Shown: positions 35,513-45,868 of the stretch, in pieces
Layout: every line of letters begins with the position of its first letter
Position numbering within the stretch: position 1 is the stretch's first letter
Assembly: GCF_003355515.1 (NCBI RefSeq)
Contig: NZ_CP031367.1
Coordinates: forward strand, 1,612,001 to 1,676,000
DNA: 64,000 nucleotides
Direction: 5' to 3'
Source of the DNA: Aliarcobacter trophiarum LMG 25534
Lineage (GTDB): Bacteria; Campylobacterota; Campylobacteria; Campylobacterales; Arcobacteraceae
Translations under genes and position numbers: made by a program
The notes under the pieces: model-generated
Told to the model about the DNA's origin: nothing
Databases searched by the model: none
What the model saw: the letters and a program-made list of their open reading frames with translations, nothing else

Positions 35513-36178
35513 ATGACATTGAACCAAAGTATAAAAAGTTTGGATTTTTTTGCAAATCTAGATGATAAGCAAATTGATTTTCTAAGCAATTTCTCCTTTA
35601 TCTCAAAATACGAAAGAGATTCTATTTTATTTTATGAAACAGATTTAAAAACTAATCTTCTTTTTTTAGTAAGAGGTTTAATAAAAGTTTATAAATACGA
35701 TAAATTTGACAATGAAATATTTTTATATCACATACATTCAAACTCTTTAATAAGCGAACTAAGCAATCTAAATACAAACGAAATCTACTGCTTTTCAAAT
35801 GCATCTTTTATGGAAGATTCTATAGTTTTATCTGTAGATTTCCTAAAACTACAAGAACATTTTTTAGATAACAACCTGCTTGTAAAAGAGCTAATGAATT
35901 CTCTACTAAACAAAACTCATCAACTCCAATGTTTAGTAAATAGAGAGTTGGTTTTTGATGCTACTGCAAAAGTTGCTTATATGTTAGTTAGTGATTTAGA
36001 GATGTTTAATAGCTTAAAAAGACAAGATGTTAGTTTTATGCTACATATTCAACCTGAAACTCTATCAAGAGTTTTAAAAAAATTGTCAAGAGATAATATC
36101 ATTGAAGTTGAAAATCAACAAGTTATGATTAAAGATAAAACTGCATTAAACTATATTTTTAAAGGAGTAGGAATATGA
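35513..36178 (+). CDS. Crp/Fnr-family transcriptional regulator
   Basis: 221 residues: a cyclic-nucleotide-binding-type beta-roll (about 15-120), dimer helix, and C-terminal winged helix. The recognition helix PETLSRVLKKL has Glu182, Ser185 and Arg186, the pattern with which FNR-type proteins read TTGA. The N-terminal cysteines of true FNR are missing, so it should not carry an oxygen-labile cluster and is closer to the Dnr/NssR type of nitrogen-oxide regulators. Its stop overlaps the start of the NarX/PilJ-like gene (ATGA), and the nap operon with a TTGAC-N4-GTCAA site follows. It is the best candidate activator of nap. Confidence 0.9.
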   Translation: MTLNQSIKSLDFFANLDDKQIDFLSNFSFISKYERDSILFYETDLKTNLLFLVRGLIKVYKYDKFDNEIFLYHIHSNSLISELSNLNTNEIYCFSNASFMEDSIVLSVDFLKLQEHFLDNNLLVKELMNSLLNKTHQLQCLVNRELVFDATAKVAYMLVSDLEMFNSLKRQDVSFMLHIQPETLSRVLKKLSRDNIIEVENQQVMIKDKTALNYIFKGVGI

Positions 36179-37170
36179 AAAAAAGTACTATTAGCACGAA
36201 AATAAAAGTTATTGGAATACTTTTTGTACTTCTAATGGCAAGCATTGTTGCAACAACTATCTACTTAAATAATAAAAATGAAAAAGATGCAATGATTGTA
36301 AATATCGCTGGGAAACAAAGAATGTTAAGCCAAAATATCTCAAAAAATATATTCTACATATATTTAAACCCAAAATCTTCACAGCAAGAGTTAGATTCTA
36401 GTGTTGAAGAGTTTATTTACAATCTTGAAAGCTTAAAAGGCGGAAATAGTTTATCAAAATTAAAAGAAGCTCCTAATATTCATATAGATAAGCAGATGTT
36501 ACAAGTAGAACTTTTGTGGTCTATTTTTTACAAAAATATAGTTAAGTTTAAAGAGTTAATCTCAAGTAATAAAAATCAAGAAGAGTTAGAAAAGATTGTA
36601 AATATAATATACGAAACAAATCCAAATCTTCTTTATGAAGTAGATGCACTTGTTAGCCTTCATACAATAAATAGTGAACAAAAAATAAAATTATTAAAAA
36701 ATAGTCAATACTTTTTCGCTATTTTAATTCTACTTCTAATTATTTATAGTTTTCTTGAATTAAAAACTATGGAAAAAAATGCCCTAAATTTTCTTGAAGA
36801 ATCAAAAAGAGTTATGGAACAAGATTTAGAAGAGCCCTTAAAGCCTATAAAAATTGAAGCTGAAGGTGAATTAATAGAAGCTTCATATATGTTTAATAGA
36901 TTTTTAAACAAAATAAATAGTGCAATAATAGACTCAAATAGTGCTTTAGAACAATCAAAAAATGCTTCTATAAAATTAGAAGAGATTTCAAATGAATTTG
37001 ATGAAATTATAAATGAACTACAAAATAAAAGTGAAATATCAAAACAGTTAAATAGAAGTGAAGATATTGCAATACAAACACAAGAGCAACTTTTACACTC
37101 TGGTAAAAGATTAAATGAGCTTAAAAATGAGCTTGAAAAGATTATTCTTTTTGTAGAAAAAAAGAGTTGA
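36175..37170 (+). CDS. NarX/PilJ-type sensor protein without output domain
   Basis: 331 residues. TM1 (about 12-30), a periplasmic helical domain with the nitrate-sensor-like motif NIAGKQRMLSQNI (43-55), TM2 (about 184-201), then a HAMP-like and coiled-coil cytoplasmic part (about 202-331). There is no HisKA/HATPase, methyl-accepting or GGDEF domain, so it cannot signal by the usual routes. The four-base overlap with the Crp/Fnr gene and the nap operon 121 bases downstream suggest that it senses nitrate or nitrite for that system, perhaps by binding the regulator. Function unproven. Confidence 0.82.
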   Translation: MKKSTISTKIKVIGILFVLLMASIVATTIYLNNKNEKDAMIVNIAGKQRMLSQNISKNIFYIYLNPKSSQQELDSSVEEFIYNLESLKGGNSLSKLKEAPNIHIDKQMLQVELLWSIFYKNIVKFKELISSNKNQEELEKIVNIIYETNPNLLYEVDALVSLHTINSEQKIKLLKNSQYFFAILILLLIIYSFLELKTMEKNALNFLEESKRVMEQDLEEPLKPIKIEAEGELIEASYMFNRFLNKINSAIIDSNSALEQSKNASIKLEEISNEFDEIINELQNKSEISKQLNRSEDIAIQTQEQLLHSGKRLNELKNELEKIILFVEKKS

Positions 37171-37214: not shown

Positions 37215-37256
37215 TTGACCAATGTCAATTCTTTTATCTCTACTTCTTAGTAATAT
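37215..37256 (+). promoter_or_regulatory. nap promoter with TTGAC-N4-GTCAA operator
   Basis: TTGACCAATGTCAA (37215-37228) is a perfect palindrome of the Crp/Fnr superfamily. The -10 candidate TAATAT (37251-37256) starts 29.5 bases from its centre, which puts the site at about -41.5, the class II activation position. Confidence 0.75.
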
Positions 37257-37291: not shown

Positions 37292-40102
37292 ATGTCACTT
37301 TCAAGAAGAGATTTTCTAAAAAGTTCAGCAGCAGCAAGTGCGGCAGCAGCCATTGGTATGAGTGTACCAACAGAGCTTCAAGCACAAGCAAATACAGCTG
37401 AAAGTGGTTGGCGTTGGGATAAAGCAGCCTGTAGATTTTGTGGAACAGGTTGTGGAATTATGCTTGCAACAAAAGAGGGAAAAATTGTTGCCGTAAAGGG
37501 TGACCCAGCTGCTCCAGTTAATAGAGGGCTTAACTGTATTAAAGGATATTTTAATGCAAAAATTATGTATGGAGCAGATAGGCTAAAAACTCCACTTTTA
37601 AGAGTAAACAAAAAAGGTGAGTTTGACAAAAAAGGTGAATTTACTCCTATTTCTTGGAAAAGAGCTTTCGATGAGATGGAAAAACACATAAAAGCAGCTT
37701 TAAAAGAGAAAGGTCCAGAAGGAATTGGTGTATTTGGAAGTGGACAATACACTATTATGGAAGGTTATGCAGCTCTTAAAATGATGAAAGCAGGATTTAG
37801 ATCAAATGCAATTGATCCAAATGCAAGACACTGTATGGCTAGTGCTGTTGTTGGTTTTTATCAAACTTTCGGAATAGATGAACCAAGTGGTTGTTATGAT
37901 GATATTGAACTAACAGATACAGTTGTTTGTTGGGGTTCAAATATGGCTGAAATGCACCCTATTTTATGGTCAAGAGTTACTGATAGAAAATTAAGTAATC
38001 CAGATAAAGTAAAAGTAATAAATATTTCAACATATAGACATAGAACTTCTGATATTGCTGATATGGAAATAATTTTCACACCAAATACAGATTTAGCTTT
38101 ATGGAACTATATAGCAAGAGAGATAGTATATAATCGTCCTGAATCAATAGATTGGGATTTTATAAAAGAGAATATAGTATTTGCTGCAAGTCCAGTTAAT
38201 ATTGGTTATGGTATGAGAAGAAGTGATGAGAAATCTATAAAAGATGGAAAATACTCAAGTAAAGAGATGGAGATTGTAAATAAAGAGATGGAAACTATTG
38301 TTTCTGAAACAGAAGCTCCAGCACTTGCACCTTATGGGTATAAAGCTGGTGATAAAATGACTCATAAAAATACAGGTCTTGCTCACTGGGAAATTAGCTT
38401 TGAAGAGTACAAAAAATCTTTAGAGCCTTATACTCTTGATTATGTTGCAAAAATTGCAAAAGGGAATCCTGATGAGGACATTGAAGAGTTTAAGAAAAAA
38501 CTTCAACAACTTGCAAATTGGTATATTGAAAAAGATAGAAAAGTTGTAAGTTTCTGGACGATGGGAATGAACCAACATACACGTGGAACTTGGGTAAATA
38601 CACTATCTTATAATGTTCACTTTTTATTAAATAAACAAGCACATCCAGGAAGTGGAGCATTTTCACTAACAGGACAACCTAGTGCATGTGGAACAGCAAG
38701 AGAAGTAGGAACATTTACACATAGACTTCCAGCTGATATGATGACAGAAAATCCAAAACATAGAGAAATCACTGAAAAAGTATGGAATGTACCACTTGGA
38801 ACATTAAATCCAAAAGGAACTCAACCTTTTATGAAAATCATGAGAGATTTAGAAGATGGAAATATGAAATTTGCTTGGGTAAATGTAAATAATCCTTGGC
38901 AAAATACTGCAAATGCAAACCACTGGTTAAAAGCTGCAAGAGAGATGGATAACTTTATAGTAACTTCAGAAGCATATCCTGGAATATCTGCAAAAGTTTC
39001 AGATTTAATTCTACCTTCAGCAATGATTTATGAAAAATGGGGTGGTTATGGAAATGCAGAAAGAAGAACACAACTATGGAGACAACAAGTTCTTCCAATT
39101 GGTGATTCTATGAGTGATACATGGCAATGGGTTGAATTATCAAAAAGATTTACGGTTAAAGATGTTTGGGGTGAGCAAAGTTTACTTAGCACAAAAGGTG
39201 AAGTAAAACTTCCTAGCATGATTGAAGCAGCAAAAGCTATGGGATATAATGAAAACTCAACAATGTATGATATTTTATTTGCAAATGATAGAGCAAAATC
39301 ATATAAGGCTGATTTAAAAGACCCTATCCAAGCTGGTTATGATAATACAGAAGCATTTGGAGATAGTAGAAATGTACAAGGAAGTGATGGAAAACCATGG
39401 AAAGGGTATGGATTCTTTGTTCAAAAATATCTATTCGAAGAGTATGCAGATTTTGGAAGAGGACACGGACACGATTTAGCAGATTTTGATACTTACCACA
39501 AAGTAAGAGGACTTAAATGGCCAGTTGTTGATGGAAAAGAGACATCATGGAGATTTAATACAAAATATGACCCATATGCAAAAGCTGAAAACCCAAATGG
39601 TAATTTCGCATTTTATGGAACTTTAGCAAAAGAGTTAGCTCAAGGTGATTTAACAGGAATTAAAGATAAAACTAAAAAATCTCTAAAAAATAAAGCAAAA
39701 ATATTTGCACGTCCTTATATGGATCCACCAGAAAAGCCAGATTCTGAGTATCCAGTTTGGCTTAGCACAGGAAGAGTTCTAGAACATTGGCATAGTGGAA
39801 CTATGACTATGAGAGTTCCTGAACTTTATAGAGCAGTTCCAGAAGCACTTTGCTATATGCACCCTGAAGATGCAAATAAATATGGTGTAAAACAAGGTGA
39901 ACTAGCTTGGGTTGAAAGTAGAAGAGGAAAAGTAAAAGCAAGAGTTGAAACAAGAGGAAGAAATAGACCATCAAGAGGATTAGTATATGTTCCTTGGTTT
40001 GATGAAAAAGTGTTTATAAATAAAGTTTGTTTAGATGCAACTTGTCCACAATCAGGACAAACTGACTTCAAAAAATGTGCGGTAAAAGTTTATAAAGCTT
40101 AA
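37292..40102 (+). CDS. napA: Periplasmic nitrate reductase catalytic subunit NapA
   Basis: Reduces nitrate to nitrite in the periplasm at a bis-MGD molybdenum site. Twin-arginine signal SRRDFLK (4-10) with a long Ala-rich h-region. The [4Fe-4S] cysteines are 47, 50, 54 and 82. The Mo-ligand cysteine lies in [13 protein letters not shown], and the C-terminal cofactor domain has [16 protein letters not shown]. At 936 residues it has the longer form typical of Campylobacterota. AAAGGAG precedes the ATG. First gene of napAGHBFLD. The electron route is probably quinol to NapGH to NapB to NapA, since no napC is present. Confidence 0.98.
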
Positions 40103-40113
40103 AAGGTAAATAG

Positions 40114-40920
40114 ATGAATATAGTAAAAAACTATCAAGAAAATAGAAGGAAGTTTCTTCTAAAAAGTGCTAGAACTATTGGTTTAGTAGTTCTTGGTAGT
40201 TTAACATGGAGTGCATATTTAAGTGAAGTAAAAGCTAGTAGTCTAATTTTAAGACCACCAGCTGCCATAAAAGAAGATGATTTTTTGGCTACTTGTATAA
40301 AATGTGGGCTTTGTGTAGAGGCATGTCCTTTTGATACACTAAAATTGGCAAAACCAGGGGATAATTTACCTTTAGGAACTCCTTATTTTGTTCCTAGAGA
40401 TATTCCTTGCTATATGTGTGTTGATATTCCTTGTGTTCCTATTTGTCCAACAGATGCCCTTGATGAAAAAAAGGTCAAAGATGAAAATGGGGCTTTTGAA
40501 ATAAGACAGATGGAAATGGGAGTTGCAGTTGTAGATGTAAAATCTTGTGTAGCTTTTTGGGGAATTCAATGTGATGCATGTTATAGAGCTTGTCCACTTT
40601 TAGGTGAAGCTATAGATATAGTATATGAAAAAAATGAACGAACAGGAAAGCATGCATTTTTAAAACCTGTTGTAGATAGTGATATTTGTACAGGTTGCGG
40701 ACTTTGTGAAAAAGCTTGTATTACTGAAAAACCAGCAATTTTTGTACTTCCTAGAGAAAATGCTTTAGGAAAAGTGGGAGACCACTACATAAAAGGGTGG
40801 GATGAAGCAGATGAGCGAAGAGTAAAAGATGCTTCTGTTGAGATTGGGAAAACAAAAATAAATAAAAAAAGTGCAGTTGAGTCTTTAAATAGTGGTATGG
40901 AGGATTTACTAAATGATTAA
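40114..40920 (+). CDS. napG: Ferredoxin-type protein NapG
   Basis: Periplasmic iron-sulfur protein that passes electrons from NapH towards NapB/NapA. Twin-arginine-like signal NRRKFLLKSARTIG at the N-terminus, then four [4Fe-4S] cysteine clusters: CIKCGLCVEACP, CYMCVDIPCVPICP, CVAFWGIQCDACYRACP and CTGCGLCEKACI. 268 residues. It is 11 bases after napA and overlaps napH by eight bases. Confidence 0.96.
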   Translation: MNIVKNYQENRRKFLLKSARTIGLVVLGSLTWSAYLSEVKASSLILRPPAAIKEDDFLATCIKCGLCVEACPFDTLKLAKPGDNLPLGTPYFVPRDIPCYMCVDIPCVPICPTDALDEKKVKDENGAFEIRQMEMGVAVVDVKSCVAFWGIQCDACYRACPLLGEAIDIVYEKNERTGKHAFLKPVVDSDICTGCGLCEKACITEKPAIFVLPRENALGKVGDHYIKGWDEADERRVKDASVEIGKTKINKKSAVESLNSGMEDLLND

Positions 40921-41719
40921 AAAATATAGATTTTTAATAGCAAGAAGAGTAAGTCAAATCTCTATTATGGCTCTTTATATTGTAGCAAATATTTATGGGA
41001 TAAATATCTTAATGGGTAATTTAAGTACCTCTTTGGTTTTAAATACTATAACATTAAGTGACCCATTTGCAGTAATGCAAATGATTTTTGCAGGAGCTAT
41101 TATCTCTTTCGATATAGCTTTAGGAGCATTTATAGTTGCAATATTCTACTTTACAATAGGTGGAAGGTCATTTTGCTCTTGGGTTTGCCCTGTAAATATT
41201 ATAACTGATAGTGCAAACTATTTAAGAAGAGTTCTAAAATTTGATGAAGTACAAAAAAAACAACCAGCAACTAGAAACTTAAGATATTGGCTGATTTTAA
41301 TTAGTTTTATAATCTCATATTTTATGGGAGTTGCAGCTTTTGAACTTATCTCACCAGTATCTATGGTTCATAGAGGTTTAGTTTTTGGTCTAGGATTTGG
41401 ACTTGCAACAATTATTGTAATATTTTTATTTGATCTATTTGTTTTAAAAAATGGTTGGTGTGGGCATATTTGCCCTCTTGGTGGATTTTATTCACTAATT
41501 GGAAGATTTAGCCTGTTAAGAGTCCATCATAATCATGAAAAATGCACTGCTTGTATGAAGTGTAAAGTTGTATGCCCTGAAATTCAAGTTTTACATATGA
41601 TAGATAAAAGTAGTGAACCTGTTTTACAAGAGTGTACTTCGTGTGCTAGATGTATTGAGGTTTGTGATGATGATGCACTAAATTTCGAATTAAGAAATTA
41701 TATGAAGGAGAAAAAATGA
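40913..41719 (+). CDS. napH: Quinol dehydrogenase membrane component NapH
   Basis: Integral membrane iron-sulfur protein that oxidises menaquinol with NapG. Four TM helices, cytoplasmic CSWVCPVN and CGHICPLGG motifs, and two C-terminal ferredoxin clusters CTACMKCKVVCP and CTSCARCIEVCD. 268 residues. It overlaps napG by eight bases and napB by four (ATGA), so the genes are translationally coupled. Confidence 0.96.
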   Translation: MIKKYRFLIARRVSQISIMALYIVANIYGINILMGNLSTSLVLNTITLSDPFAVMQMIFAGAIISFDIALGAFIVAIFYFTIGGRSFCSWVCPVNIITDSANYLRRVLKFDEVQKKQPATRNLRYWLILISFIISYFMGVAAFELISPVSMVHRGLVFGLGFGLATIIVIFLFDLFVLKNGWCGHICPLGGFYSLIGRFSLLRVHHNHEKCTACMKCKVVCPEIQVLHMIDKSSEPVLQECTSCARCIEVCDDDALNFELRNYMKEKK

Positions 41720-42318
41720 AATTAACAAAATTAGCTTTGAGCCTAGTTGCCATTGCAACTCTTTTTACTTTTGCTTATGCAGCAAACAAGACTATAAAAG
41801 ATGACTCTATTGGTATTAGACAAGGTAGTCTTTTTCAAGAAGATAATGTTGTAGGAGATAAAACTCAATATAATACAGATGCAGCTGGAACTAGTACAAA
41901 AATAGATAGAGCATTTGAAAATGCTCCACCAATGATTTCACATGATACAGAAGGTATGCTTCCAATAACAATAGATAATAACCAATGTATCTCTTGTCAT
42001 GATCCAATGGTTGCTCCTAGTGTGAATGCAACTTCAATTCCGAAATCTCACTTTACAAATTTTAGAGAAGATGTAAGTATTGATAAAAAAGGTGAACTTG
42101 AAAGAGATGGTAAAATTTTAGCAAATAGTAGTGACATAAAAACTATTGTAAAACCACTTGACCATTTATCAAATGCTAGATTTAACTGTTCAGCATGTCA
42201 TGCACCACAATCAGATAGTAAAATTGTTCCAAAAAACAACTTTATCCCTGATTTTAGAGGTACTGATTTGAATAATAAATCAAATCTTATGGACAATGTA
42301 TCAGAGGGTGTTAAATAG
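41716..42318 (+). CDS. napB: Dihaem cytochrome c NapB
   Basis: Electron-transfer subunit that docks on NapA in the periplasm. Cleavable signal peptide (ending near AYA), then two haem motifs CISCH and CSACH with conserved His residues (PPMISHDTEG and FTNFRED regions). 200 residues. It overlaps napH by four bases; its TAG stop shares one base with the GTG start of napF. Confidence 0.96.
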   Translation: MKLTKLALSLVAIATLFTFAYAANKTIKDDSIGIRQGSLFQEDNVVGDKTQYNTDAAGTSTKIDRAFENAPPMISHDTEGMLPITIDNNQCISCHDPMVAPSVNATSIPKSHFTNFREDVSIDKKGELERDGKILANSSDIKTIVKPLDHLSNARFNCSACHAPQSDSKIVPKNNFIPDFRGTDLNNKSNLMDNVSEGVK

Positions 42319-42800
42319 TGCAAAGAAGAGAGCTTTTTAGCTCTCTTTCTAAATCTTTTAAGCAAAAAGATGAATTAAGAGCTATAAGACCACCTTACTT
42401 CAAAGATAGTAATCTTTTTTTGACAAACTGTATTTTATGTAGTTCTAAAGAGTGCGCAGAAGTTTGCCAAGAGAGTATTATAATAATTTTAGATGATGAA
42501 ACACCTAGTTTAGATTTTTCTAAAAGTGGCTGTACATATTGTGATTTATGCGCTATATCTTGTAGTGGTGAAGTTCTAAAAATAGAAGATAAAAAGCAAA
42601 TAGAAGTTAAAATAGAGATAGATATATTAACTTGTCTTTCTTGGCAAAATACAATGTGTTTTTCGTGCAAAGACCCATGTCTTGATAATGCTATTGAATT
42701 TTTAGGAATGTTTAGACCATCTATACAAAATAGCTGTACATCTTGTGGATTTTGTATAAAAGTATGTCCAACAAATGCAATAAAGGTAAAAAACTTATGA
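42318..42800 (+). CDS. napF: Ferredoxin-type protein NapF
   Basis: Cytoplasmic iron-sulfur protein thought to help mature NapA. Four cysteine clusters: CILCSSKECAEVCQ, CTYCDLCAISCS, CLSWQNTMCFSCKDPCLD and CTSCGFCIKVCP. 160 residues. The start is GTG at 42318, sharing a base with the napB stop. It overlaps napL by four bases. No signal peptide, as expected. Confidence 0.94.
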   Translation: MQRRELFSSLSKSFKQKDELRAIRPPYFKDSNLFLTNCILCSSKECAEVCQESIIIILDDETPSLDFSKSGCTYCDLCAISCSGEVLKIEDKKQIEVKIEIDILTCLSWQNTMCFSCKDPCLDNAIEFLGMFRPSIQNSCTSCGFCIKVCPTNAIKVKNL

Positions 42801-43762
42801 AATTAATAAAATATATTTTTATTTTTATTTTAACTCTAAATCTATATTCAAATGATATAAAAGAGCTAAAACCAAAATATAGTTTAAAAGCTAGTGGTGG
42901 AGTTACAAATTTGGTATTAAAAGATAACCTTCTTTTAGCTTCAACAGTAGTTGGAACTATTGATATTTTTGATATAAATAATAAAACTTTATTAAAAAAA
43001 ATAGAATTAGAAAAGATAAAAGATTTTACAAATAAAACAATCAATAGTAAAATTTATAGCACAGATATTATTGATGATAAAATACTAATTTTATCTCAAG
43101 GTGAAAGTGGTGGAAGAGATATTTTTATCTATGAGAATAATAAATTTGAGAATATAATAGATGCGAATGATAGACTTTTCATAGCCTATGCAAAATTTAT
43201 TGATAATGAAAATATAATCTATGCTCTTTTGTCAAATCAGATTTTTATATATAATATAAAAGATAAAAAGATAAAAAAAGAGCTTCAAGTATCTCAATCA
43301 TCTTTTTCACACTTTGTTTTAAATGAGAAAAAAGATACTCTTTTTGTAGCAGATGAGAGTGGAATAATCTCTCAAATAGATATAAAAAACCTACAAAAAA
43401 CAAAAACCTTTAAAGGACAAAATGTTGATAGAGTTTTTCAAGTAGATATAAAAAAAGATACAATTTTAACTGCAGGTCAAGATAGAAGAGCAGCTATTTA
43501 CTCTTTAGGTTTAGAAAAGCCTTACTTTTTATCAACTGATTTTTTAATCTATACAGTAGCTTTAAGCCCTAGTTCAAATAAAGCAGCATTTTGTTTTGAT
43601 GAAAAAAATAGTGTCGCAGTTTTCAATACAGTTACAAAAGAGATTTTATATAAATTAGTAGATAATAAGTCAATTCTGACAAATATCTTATTTTTAAATG
43701 AAGACGAAATTTTTGTTTCAAGTGATGATTTTAATATAAATGTTTACAATTTAAAGGAGTAA
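42797..43762 (+). CDS. napL: NapL, periplasmic beta-propeller-like accessory protein
   Basis: 321 residues with a signal peptide (MKLIKYIFIFILTLNLYS). Repeated blades of the type NLVLKDNLLLASTVVGTIDIFDI and TLFVADESGIISQIDI indicate a WD40-like propeller. NapL occurs only in Campylobacterota nap operons; its exact role in NapA maturation or electron flow is not settled. I chose the ATG at 42797 because it forms an ATGA overlap with the napF stop and begins the signal peptide; the in-frame ATG at 42743 lies inside napF. Confidence 0.9.
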   Translation: MKLIKYIFIFILTLNLYSNDIKELKPKYSLKASGGVTNLVLKDNLLLASTVVGTIDIFDINNKTLLKKIELEKIKDFTNKTINSKIYSTDIIDDKILILSQGESGGRDIFIYENNKFENIIDANDRLFIAYAKFIDNENIIYALLSNQIFIYNIKDKKIKKELQVSQSSFSHFVLNEKKDTLFVADESGIISQIDIKNLQKTKTFKGQNVDRVFQVDIKKDTILTAGQDRRAAIYSLGLEKPYFLSTDFLIYTVALSPSSNKAAFCFDEKNSVAVFNTVTKEILYKLVDNKSILTNILFLNEDEIFVSSDDFNINVYNLKE

Positions 43763-43765
43763 AAA

Positions 43766-44152
43766 ATGAATATTTCAAGTATAGTGGTACAAACTTTACC
43801 AAAATATCTCGATAGTGTAGTAGAAAATCTTAAAAAATCTGGTGTATGTGAGTATCATATGCATGATGAAAAAGGTAGAGTAATTGTTACTATAGAAGGT
43901 GTAAATGTAGAGGAAGAGTTAAAGAAACTTAAAGTAATTGAAGCTATTCCACATATTAGTAGTGCAGATATGCAGATGAGCTATAGCGAGGAGGAATTAT
44001 CAAGTCATATGGAAGTTTTAGAAAATGCTGATTTGGTTCCAAAAGTTTTAACTGATGAAAATATCAAAGTGGAAGATATAGTATATAGAGGCGATTTAAA
44101 GAAAAAAGATTTAATAGGATTTGCCAAAATTTTTGATTCTGCAAATAAATAA
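43766..44152 (+). CDS. napD: NapD chaperone
   Basis: Cytoplasmic chaperone that binds the NapA twin-arginine signal before export. 128 residues with the ferredoxin-like NapD fold: ISSIVVQTLPKYLDSVVENL at the start and VIVTIEGVNVEEELKKLKVIE. The C-terminal extension of about 40 residues is longer than in E. coli NapD (87 residues). Last gene of the nap operon, three bases after napL. No terminator is evident before the next gene. Confidence 0.93.
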   Translation: MNISSIVVQTLPKYLDSVVENLKKSGVCEYHMHDEKGRVIVTIEGVNVEEELKKLKVIEAIPHISSADMQMSYSEEELSSHMEVLENADLVPKVLTDENIKVEDIVYRGDLKKKDLIGFAKIFDSANK

Positions 44153-44198: not shown

Positions 44199-44248
44199 TA
44201 TGATTTTTGATAAACTCTCCTAAATTATTAATTAATTTAGGGGAACAT
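44199..44248 (+). promoter_or_regulatory. -10 box and hairpin that buries the ribosome binding site of the GGDEF-EAL gene
   Basis: TATGAT (44199-44204) predicts a transcript starting near 44211. TCTCCTAAATTA (44216-44227) then pairs with TAATTTAGGGGA (44233-44244) over 12 positions (one G-U pair) around a 5-base loop. The right arm contains the whole AGGGGA ribosome binding site, four bases before the ATG. Confidence 0.6.
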
Positions 44249-45868
44249 ATGAAAACTCTACTAAGTTCTAAAACTCTTTTAGAATTAATTACCAAACACT
44301 CTCCTGATATGCTCTGGATAAAAGATTTAGAAGGTCGTTATCTATATGCAAATAGTGCTATTTGTAATGGTTTATTAATGGCAAAGCCGGATGAAGTTAT
44401 TGGAAAAACTGATGTTTTTTTTGCATTAAGAGAAAAAGAAAAATATAAAGAGGTAAAAGATTGGCATACCTTTGGAGAATTGTGTACTAATACAGATTTA
44501 GAAACTATAAAAGCCATGAAACCACTAAGATTTTTGGAACATGGAAATATAAAAGGGAAACTAACATATTTTGAAGTAGATAAAGCTCCATTTTTTGACG
44601 AACATAAGAATTTAATAGGAGTTATAGGAACAGCAAGAGATACTACTGAAGCGGTTTTATTAAAAAAGAGAAATAAACATCTTATGTATTTTGATCAACT
44701 TACAACACTTCCAAATAGACAAAAGATAATTTTAGATATTGAAAATAAAAAACCTAACTCTTCTATTGTTTTTAATATTGATAATTTTAAAGAGCTAAAT
44801 AATTTTTTTGGTACACAAAATGCTGATAAAATCTTAAAAGATATAGCCCTAAGATTTATAAAATACAATTATACAACTTATAGAATAGATGGTGATGAGT
44901 TTGCTATCCTATTTTTTGATGACAGAAATCTAGATGAGCTACAAAATGAGGCAAAAAAGATTATAAAGTTATTAGATAGTGAACCTTTTTATATAGAAGA
45001 TAAAACTATTTTAATCACCTTTTCAGTTGGCATTGCAAAAAGTAGTGAAAAACTTTTAACAAAAGTAGATATCGCAGTAAACAATGCAAAAACTTCAAAT
45101 AATCGTATATCTTTATACGAAGAGAGTGAAAATATTGAAGAGAAATACAAAGAAAATATTGAACTTGCAACTAAAATAAAAGAAGCAATTCTAGAAAAAA
45201 GAGTTATTTGTCACTATCAACCTTTACTAGATATTGAAACAAGTGAAATATACTCTTATGATAGTTTAGTAAGAATATTAAATAAAGATGGAACTATAAT
45301 ATCTCCATATAAGTTTTTAGAGTTCTCAAAAAAGATAAAGCTATACTCAAGTATCACAAAGATAGTTATAAGTGAAGCTTGTAAAACATTTCAAAATAGA
45401 GATGAAAAATTCTCTATAAATCTAAGTGTTGATGATATAAAAGATAAAAATACAGTTGAATATATCTTAAAAACTATACAAGATACAAATACAGCTTCAA
45501 GGGTAACTTTTGAAATTCTAGAATCTGAAGGTATTGAGAATTATGAAGAGGTTATCTCATTTATAAATCAAATAAAATATTTGGGAGCTAGGATTGCAAT
45601 AGATGATTTTGGTACAGGATATTCAAACTTCGAGCATCTTCTAAGATTAGATGTTGATTATATAAAAATAGATGGCTCTTTAATTAGAAACATAGTCTCA
45701 GATGATAAACATAAATTAATAGTTGAGACTATTGTAAGTTTTGCAAAAAAAATAGGAATTAAAACAGTTGCTGAATTCGTAAGTGATGATAATATTTTAG
45801 ATATTATAAAAGAGATAGGAATAAGCTGTGCTCAGGGGTATCATATAGGACAACCAAGGCAACTTTGA
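44249..45868 (+). CDS. PAS-GGDEF-EAL protein, both catalytic motifs degenerate
   Basis: 539 residues. A PAS domain (about 8-135) with HSPDMLWIKDLEGRYLYANS, a GGDEF domain (about 145-290) and an EAL domain (about 300-535). The GGDEF motif reads IDGDEF (213-218) and the preceding DxD reads NID. The EAL motif reads YDSLVR (337-342), with Glu replaced by Asp, although IDDFGTGYSN and KIDGSLI are kept. It may be a weak phosphodiesterase or a c-di-GMP receptor. I chose the ATG at 44249 with AGGGGA upstream; the ATG at 44207 would precede the hairpin. The next gene follows after one base. Confidence 0.87.
   Translation: MKTLLSSKTLLELITKHSPDMLWIKDLEGRYLYANSAICNGLLMAKPDEVIGKTDVFFALREKEKYKEVKDWHTFGELCTNTDLETIKAMKPLRFLEHGNIKGKLTYFEVDKAPFFDEHKNLIGVIGTARDTTEAVLLKKRNKHLMYFDQLTTLPNRQKIILDIENKKPNSSIVFNIDNFKELNNFFGTQNADKILKDIALRFIKYNYTTYRIDGDEFAILFFDDRNLDELQNEAKKIIKLLDSEPFYIEDKTILITFSVGIAKSSEKLLTKVDIAVNNAKTSNNRISLYEESENIEEKYKENIELATKIKEAILEKRVICHYQPLLDIETSEIYSYDSLVRILNKDGTIISPYKFLEFSKKIKLYSSITKIVISEACKTFQNRDEKFSINLSVDDIKDKNTVEYILKTIQDTNTASRVTFEILESEGIENYEEVISFINQIKYLGARIAIDDFGTGYSNFEHLLRLDVDYIKIDGSLIRNIVSDDKHKLIVETIVSFAKKIGIKTVAEFVSDDNILDIIKEIGISCAQGYHIGQPRQL

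Follow-up and report, generated by a model that had tools for sequence, protein, structure and literature searches.

A closely related system has been described in Wolinella succinogenes, where the nap, nrf and nos genes are induced by nitrate, NO and N2O via three Crp/Fnr proteins (PMC8139620), and where NssA mediates the response to nitrate (PMC6682613). The published Nss consensus is TTGA-N6-TCAA. W. succinogenes responds to nitrate and not to nitrite (PMC8139620), and the same is seen for McpN of Pseudomonas aeruginosa, the protein for which the N-box, [IVL]-[ND]-x-A-G-x-Q-R-M-L-[ST]-Q, was defined (PMC6381276). According to a review from 2021, the sensing of the nitrate, NO and N2O signals, including that of NssA, was still to be understood (PMC8139620). 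Nap works in the periplasm, so that any soluble factor would depend on a transmembrane protein to inform it. The two-gene unit described here, as judged from its sequence and that of its relatives, probably provides the nitrate switch so far missing for the nap genes. The pair is a concrete candidate for nitrate sensing by NssA and is widespread in Campylobacterales.

The window, a stretch of 64,000 nucleotides from Aliarcobacter trophiarum LMG 25534 (nearest named relatives found: Arcobacter cryaerophilus, 88%, and A. vandammei, 74%), carries an apparent NssA-type Crp/Fnr regulator gene at 35513..36178 on the plus strand (221 aa), and immediately after it, at 36175..37170 on the same strand, the gene, with an ATG start, of a 331-aa PilJ/NarQ-type membrane sensor, which has two transmembrane segments and lacks any known output domain. 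The stop of the first gene and the start of the second share a 4-base ATGA overlap. The proposed target follows at 37292..44152 (plus strand), where napA begins at 37292 and, judging from the ORF translations, is succeeded by napG, H, B, F, L and D-like ORFs; the names follow the Campylobacterota nap gene order and homology between the loci. This gene order, overlap included, had been given in the sequence-only reading, and its coordinates turned out to be exact. Between the sensor and napA there is an Nss-type operator, TTGACCAATGTCAA, at 37215..37228 (plus strand), -77 to -64 bp relative to napA. It fits the consensus exactly and is also the sole exact match to TTGAC-N4-GTCAA in the window. 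Directly 3' of napD lies a large ORF (44207-45868) with PAS-GGDEF-EAL-like sequence, a possible link between cyclic-di-GMP and nitrate respiration.

The sensor contains a PilJ domain (PF13675, E=1.5e-17, residues 30-136) and, in its hydropathy profile, two hydrophobic segments at about residues 8-30 and 177-197, in agreement with the two TM helices proposed earlier. The AGKQRMLSQ motif that had been noticed in the sequence-only reading is part of a complete N-box: VNIAGKQRMLSQ, residues 42-53 (36298..36333, plus strand), agrees with the McpN definition at all positions and includes G46 and R49 of the G-x-x-R known from NarX and NarQ. From this motif it is inferred that the sensor binds nitrate in the periplasm. 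Output domains were searched for in Pfam and NCBIfam, and none was found in the window protein or in 36 diverse homologues, among which HisKA, HATPase and MCP signalling domains are also absent; the description of a sensor with no output domain has thus been borne out. Longer forms with two PilJ domains also occur (about 440-470 aa), each with two N-box-like motifs. Five further proteins (L164-L168, e.g. L164:6333-8015) of about 560 aa have four tandem PilJ domains and lack the cytoplasmic part of the sensor; their neighbourhoods are operon-like, with small unidentified ORFs, and distant from Crp genes.

To the picture of the cytoplasmic part as only a coiled coil, something has to be added. 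An AF2 model of the sensor was made from the 36 homologues (pLDDT 83.8, pTM 0.54) and shows helices at residues 6-64, 71-87, 102-131, 135-214, 231-282 and 286-330, the last two of which pair as a hairpin. The top structural matches in PDB were NarQ fragments and McpN, and the NarQ sensor-TM-HAMP chains superposed on residues 1-251 with a Z of about 15 (222 residues, rmsd 3.8). Pfam HAMP was not detected, but the NarQ match covers the corresponding region of the model, and a HAMP-like segment is tentatively placed at residues ~199-251 (36769..36927, plus strand). The superposition suggests that the sensor is NarQ-like through this segment, and that thereafter some 80 residues forming a helical hairpin (residues ~252-331, 36928..37167, plus strand) take the place of the kinase parts. 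In an alignment of about 129 homologues, E296 and I300 in the hairpin are invariant, and D297 (95%), E304 (92%) and L320 (97%) nearly so. The lack of an enzymatic domain together with this conserved motif is best explained if the hairpin is a docking surface, and we infer that the motif, E296-D-x-x-I-x-x-x-E304, may dock the Crp/Fnr partner. It was also considered that the output element might be combined with other sensor domains, which was rejected, as the two best non-PilJ matches (L162 and L163) are ordinary MCPs.

The Crp/Fnr partner matches HTH_Crp_2 above the cut-off (E=6.9e-9) and cNMP_binding slightly below the curated cut-off (E=1.6e-5), and its AF2 model has the CRP/FNR fold (pLDDT 90.9). 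The genome used for comparison, a member of our phylum sample (G612), was identified as W. succinogenes DSM 1740. Its NrfA is identical across 507 residues to PDB 1FS9, the NrfA of W. succinogenes. The genome encodes three Crps of this type: a nap-adjacent one, followed by a 460-aa double-PilJ sensor, and two without a sensor, one at 1141917 and one adjacent to nosZ. In this genome (L191:9522-13425) an inverted, insertion-element-like ORF of about 396 aa splits nosZ in two. The assignment of NssA in Wolinella rests on a pattern of identities and not on a locus tag. The nap-adjacent Crp of Nitrosophilus labii has been reported as 44.8, 29.2 and 26.1% identical to NssA, NssB and NssC, and its nor-adjacent Crp as 33.3, 50.0 and 28.2% identical. 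The Crps of comparable genomes in one of our family groups (f18) gave about 46, 28 and 25%, and 33, 50 and 26%, against the nap-adjacent, 1141917 and nosZ-adjacent Crps of Wolinella, and the matching patterns imply that the nap-adjacent protein is NssA and that the two Crps lacking a sensor correspond to NssB (NO) and NssC (N2O). The window Crp is 43, 30 and 22% identical to NssA, NssB and NssC, and it is an apparent NssA orthologue, being nearest to NssA, linked to nap and having an Nss box at its target. The genome of the window encodes a second Crp, which resembles NssB (42%) and lacks a sensor.

Among the 129 Crps that are coupled to a sensor, no Cys or His is invariant, neither the Fe-S cysteines of FNR proper nor any other, which implies that they hold no FNR cluster and no obvious haem ligand. 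N166 (100%) and R144 (94%) are conserved in the coupled Crps and rare among the uncoupled ones. With the pair profile, among the Crps in the loci, the coupled ones scored at least 192.8 bits and the uncoupled at most 180.9, apart from six exceptions. Four of these stand beside truncated or frameshifted sensors, and the other two were found among 33 genomes chosen for having no sensor. Of those, 24 had some Crp of the superfamily, and only the two in question, G135 and G069, had one of NssA-like strength (E below 1e-60). In both, this Crp adjoins napA, which means that an NssA-like Crp can exist alone.

The sensor is present in 86 of 104 Arcobacteraceae genomes. An order-wide search gave matches in 207 of 399 genomes, which is an upper bound since weak PilJ matches were counted. 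Neighbourhoods were inspected in 12 family groups of a single order (Campylobacterales), and 129 of 131 distinct sensor homologues, from all 12 families, had a Crp/Fnr gene immediately upstream on the same strand. One of the two unpaired sensors is at a contig edge and the other is a weak, short PilJ protein. Such recurrence is not due to chance, but the lineages are not independent, as all the pair loci come from one order; in the phylum sample too, among the matches listed, all were within this order. The spacing within the pair was most often -4 (52 of the 120 pairs of an earlier set), with -8 next (16). The genes flanking the pair vary, most often nap and otherwise nosZ, nrfHA, nor, moaA or none of these. 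Exact Nss boxes were found upstream of napA at 43 of 55 loci and upstream of nosZ at 21 of 31, where shuffled sequences would give 0.7 and 0.3. PilJ proteins with known outputs, a histidine kinase (L114) and a GGDEF protein (L126), have no Crp neighbour. The latter, a PilJ-GGDEF protein at L126:6800-7873 (minus strand), belongs to the same genome as the window and represents a second PilJ-type input, with a diguanylate cyclase output. At four loci (L057, L058, L088 and L090), an NssA-like Crp and the sensor are followed by a second, more distant Crp, upstream of nor genes. NrfA matches in ten Arcobacteraceae genomes (G061, G035, G055, G011, G026, G014, G030, G080, G013 and G003) contained one or two internal TAA, perhaps from the alignment running beyond the true stop.

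A second Crp-sensor pair was observed immediately upstream of nosZ (L048, L063, L067-L080, L083-L085 and L107-L109). The sensors of these pairs have another conserved motif in place of the N-box, I-N-x-Q-K-x-F-T-Q-E-I-S-K-N-I-F-Y, and they carry K where the nitrate R would stand, as in the NarQ R50K apo crystal (PDB 5jeq). Of 51 nap-linked sensors, 50 retain the nitrate G and R, and of 24 nosZ-linked ones 23 have lost them (Fisher p=5e-17, a value that overstates independence, as nearly all nos-type sensors belong to a single clade). The nosZ exception, L181 (7087-8082), is a nap-type sensor gene that is frameshifted, with its Crp intact. In separate trees, the nosZ-type sensors and the nosZ-type Crps each form nearly one clade, and it is therefore likely that the pair was duplicated as a unit and that the ligand site of one copy was changed. 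The signal for the nosZ-linked sensor may be guessed to be N2O. It was considered whether this pair corresponds to NssC of W. succinogenes, which was rejected, since the N2O-linked NssC, beside nosZ in that genome, has no such sensor, and its relationship to the Crp of the pair is only distant.

The best explanation of the whole is, in our judgement, that a transmembrane receptor controls an NssA-type Crp/Fnr factor by direct contact and that nitrate thereby switches nap; we hold this to be likely, though well short of certain. Since the sensor has no output domain and its partner gene is constant, direct contact explains the data most simply. The sequence-only reading had suggested that nitrate is signalled by a membrane protein to a Crp/Fnr factor, and such a route is well supported on comparative grounds, by the near-invariant pairing, the matching phylogenetic grouping of the partners, the NssA orthology, the Nss boxes before the targets and the fact that the nosZ-linked paralogue has lost the nitrate motif. 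Nitrate, which is reduced by Nap in the periplasm, would bind the dimeric PilJ domain via the N-box, and the signal would pass through TM2 and the HAMP-like segment, as the NarQ fold match suggests, to the hairpin, where the ED-x2-I-x3-E motif would directly contact the regulator. It is conceivable that the hairpin keeps the regulator inactive without nitrate and frees it when nitrate is bound, which we slightly favour over active co-activation. Active NssA would then turn on nap from the TTGA-N6-TCAA box upstream of napA, and the duplicated pair, with its altered ligand site, may play the same role for nosZ with another signal. When coevolution of the Crp with the cytoplasmic sensor part was analysed by mean-field DCA (129 pairs, effective number 86), the couplings came mostly from rare residues and were noise at this depth. 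The broader reading, of a two-protein family in which a receptor without enzymatic output directly controls a Crp/Fnr factor and in which duplication of the pair has retuned it to at least two signals, we consider evenly balanced; the signals would be nitrate before nap and, before nosZ, a different periplasmic one, possibly N2O or one linked to NosZ.

The alternative that survives best, although we think it unlikely, is that the sensor acts indirectly, through an unlinked kinase, a chemotaxis array or a second messenger, with the adjacent Crp acting downstream or in parallel. In its architecture, a HAMP-like segment followed by a helical hairpin is similar to chemoreceptors and kinases, and the sensor profile does match MCPs weakly across TM2, HAMP and the coil, but the signalling domains of MCPs and kinases are missing from all 36 homologues, and the constant neighbour at the 129 loci is a Crp/Fnr gene. 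The genome of the window also encodes one GerE-type HTH protein, but no kinase was seen adjoining its gene. Less probable still is a mixed input, where the Crp itself senses NO, nitrate or a metabolite and the sensor does no more than modulate or localise it, or instead targets the Nap machinery. Relatives of the NssB and NssC types function without a sensor, G135 and G069 have their NssA-like Crp alone, and the best PDB sequence match of the Crp is DNR, a related NO regulator; against this, the coupled Crps share no invariant Cys or His, and Crps of NssA strength nearly always have the sensor directly after them. That the two genes are merely co-transcribed for nitrogen-oxide respiration, with no action on each other, is very improbable, for even if adjacency alone is no proof of interaction and the loci are all from one order, the pair persists while both flanks change, and the trees of the two partners, built separately, both group the nosZ-linked copy, as would follow from duplication of the whole pair.

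The literature search, made without the 2016 Nss paper, found no description of the sensor or of its link to NssA. The sensor domain and the regulator are both from known families, and it is their arrangement, a receptor acting on a Crp/Fnr factor, that appears to be undescribed in the literature searched. In W. succinogenes, NssA resembles the window Crp in sequence, box, nap linkage and adjoining PilJ sensor, but the sensor beside it has two PilJ domains, unlike that of the window. In systems of the FecR/FecI type, a membrane protein with periplasmic input is encoded alongside the soluble transcription factor that it appears to control by contact. The pair described here likewise combines periplasmic input with a co-encoded soluble transcription factor, but has neither a sigma factor nor an outer-membrane receptor, and the proteins are unrelated. 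With McpN the sensor shares the exact N-box and the fold of the PilJ domain, but lacks the MCP signalling domain, and is by its domain content no chemotaxis receptor. NarQ and NarX of E. coli are like the sensor in their PilJ-type four-helix periplasmic domain with G-x-x-R, their two TMs and, as the fold match suggests, their HAMP-like segment. Unlike them, the sensor has no HisKA or HATPase, and its partner is a Crp/Fnr protein and not a response regulator, which, if our reading is true, would mean that a HAMP-type receptor has been wired to a Crp/Fnr factor in place of a kinase.
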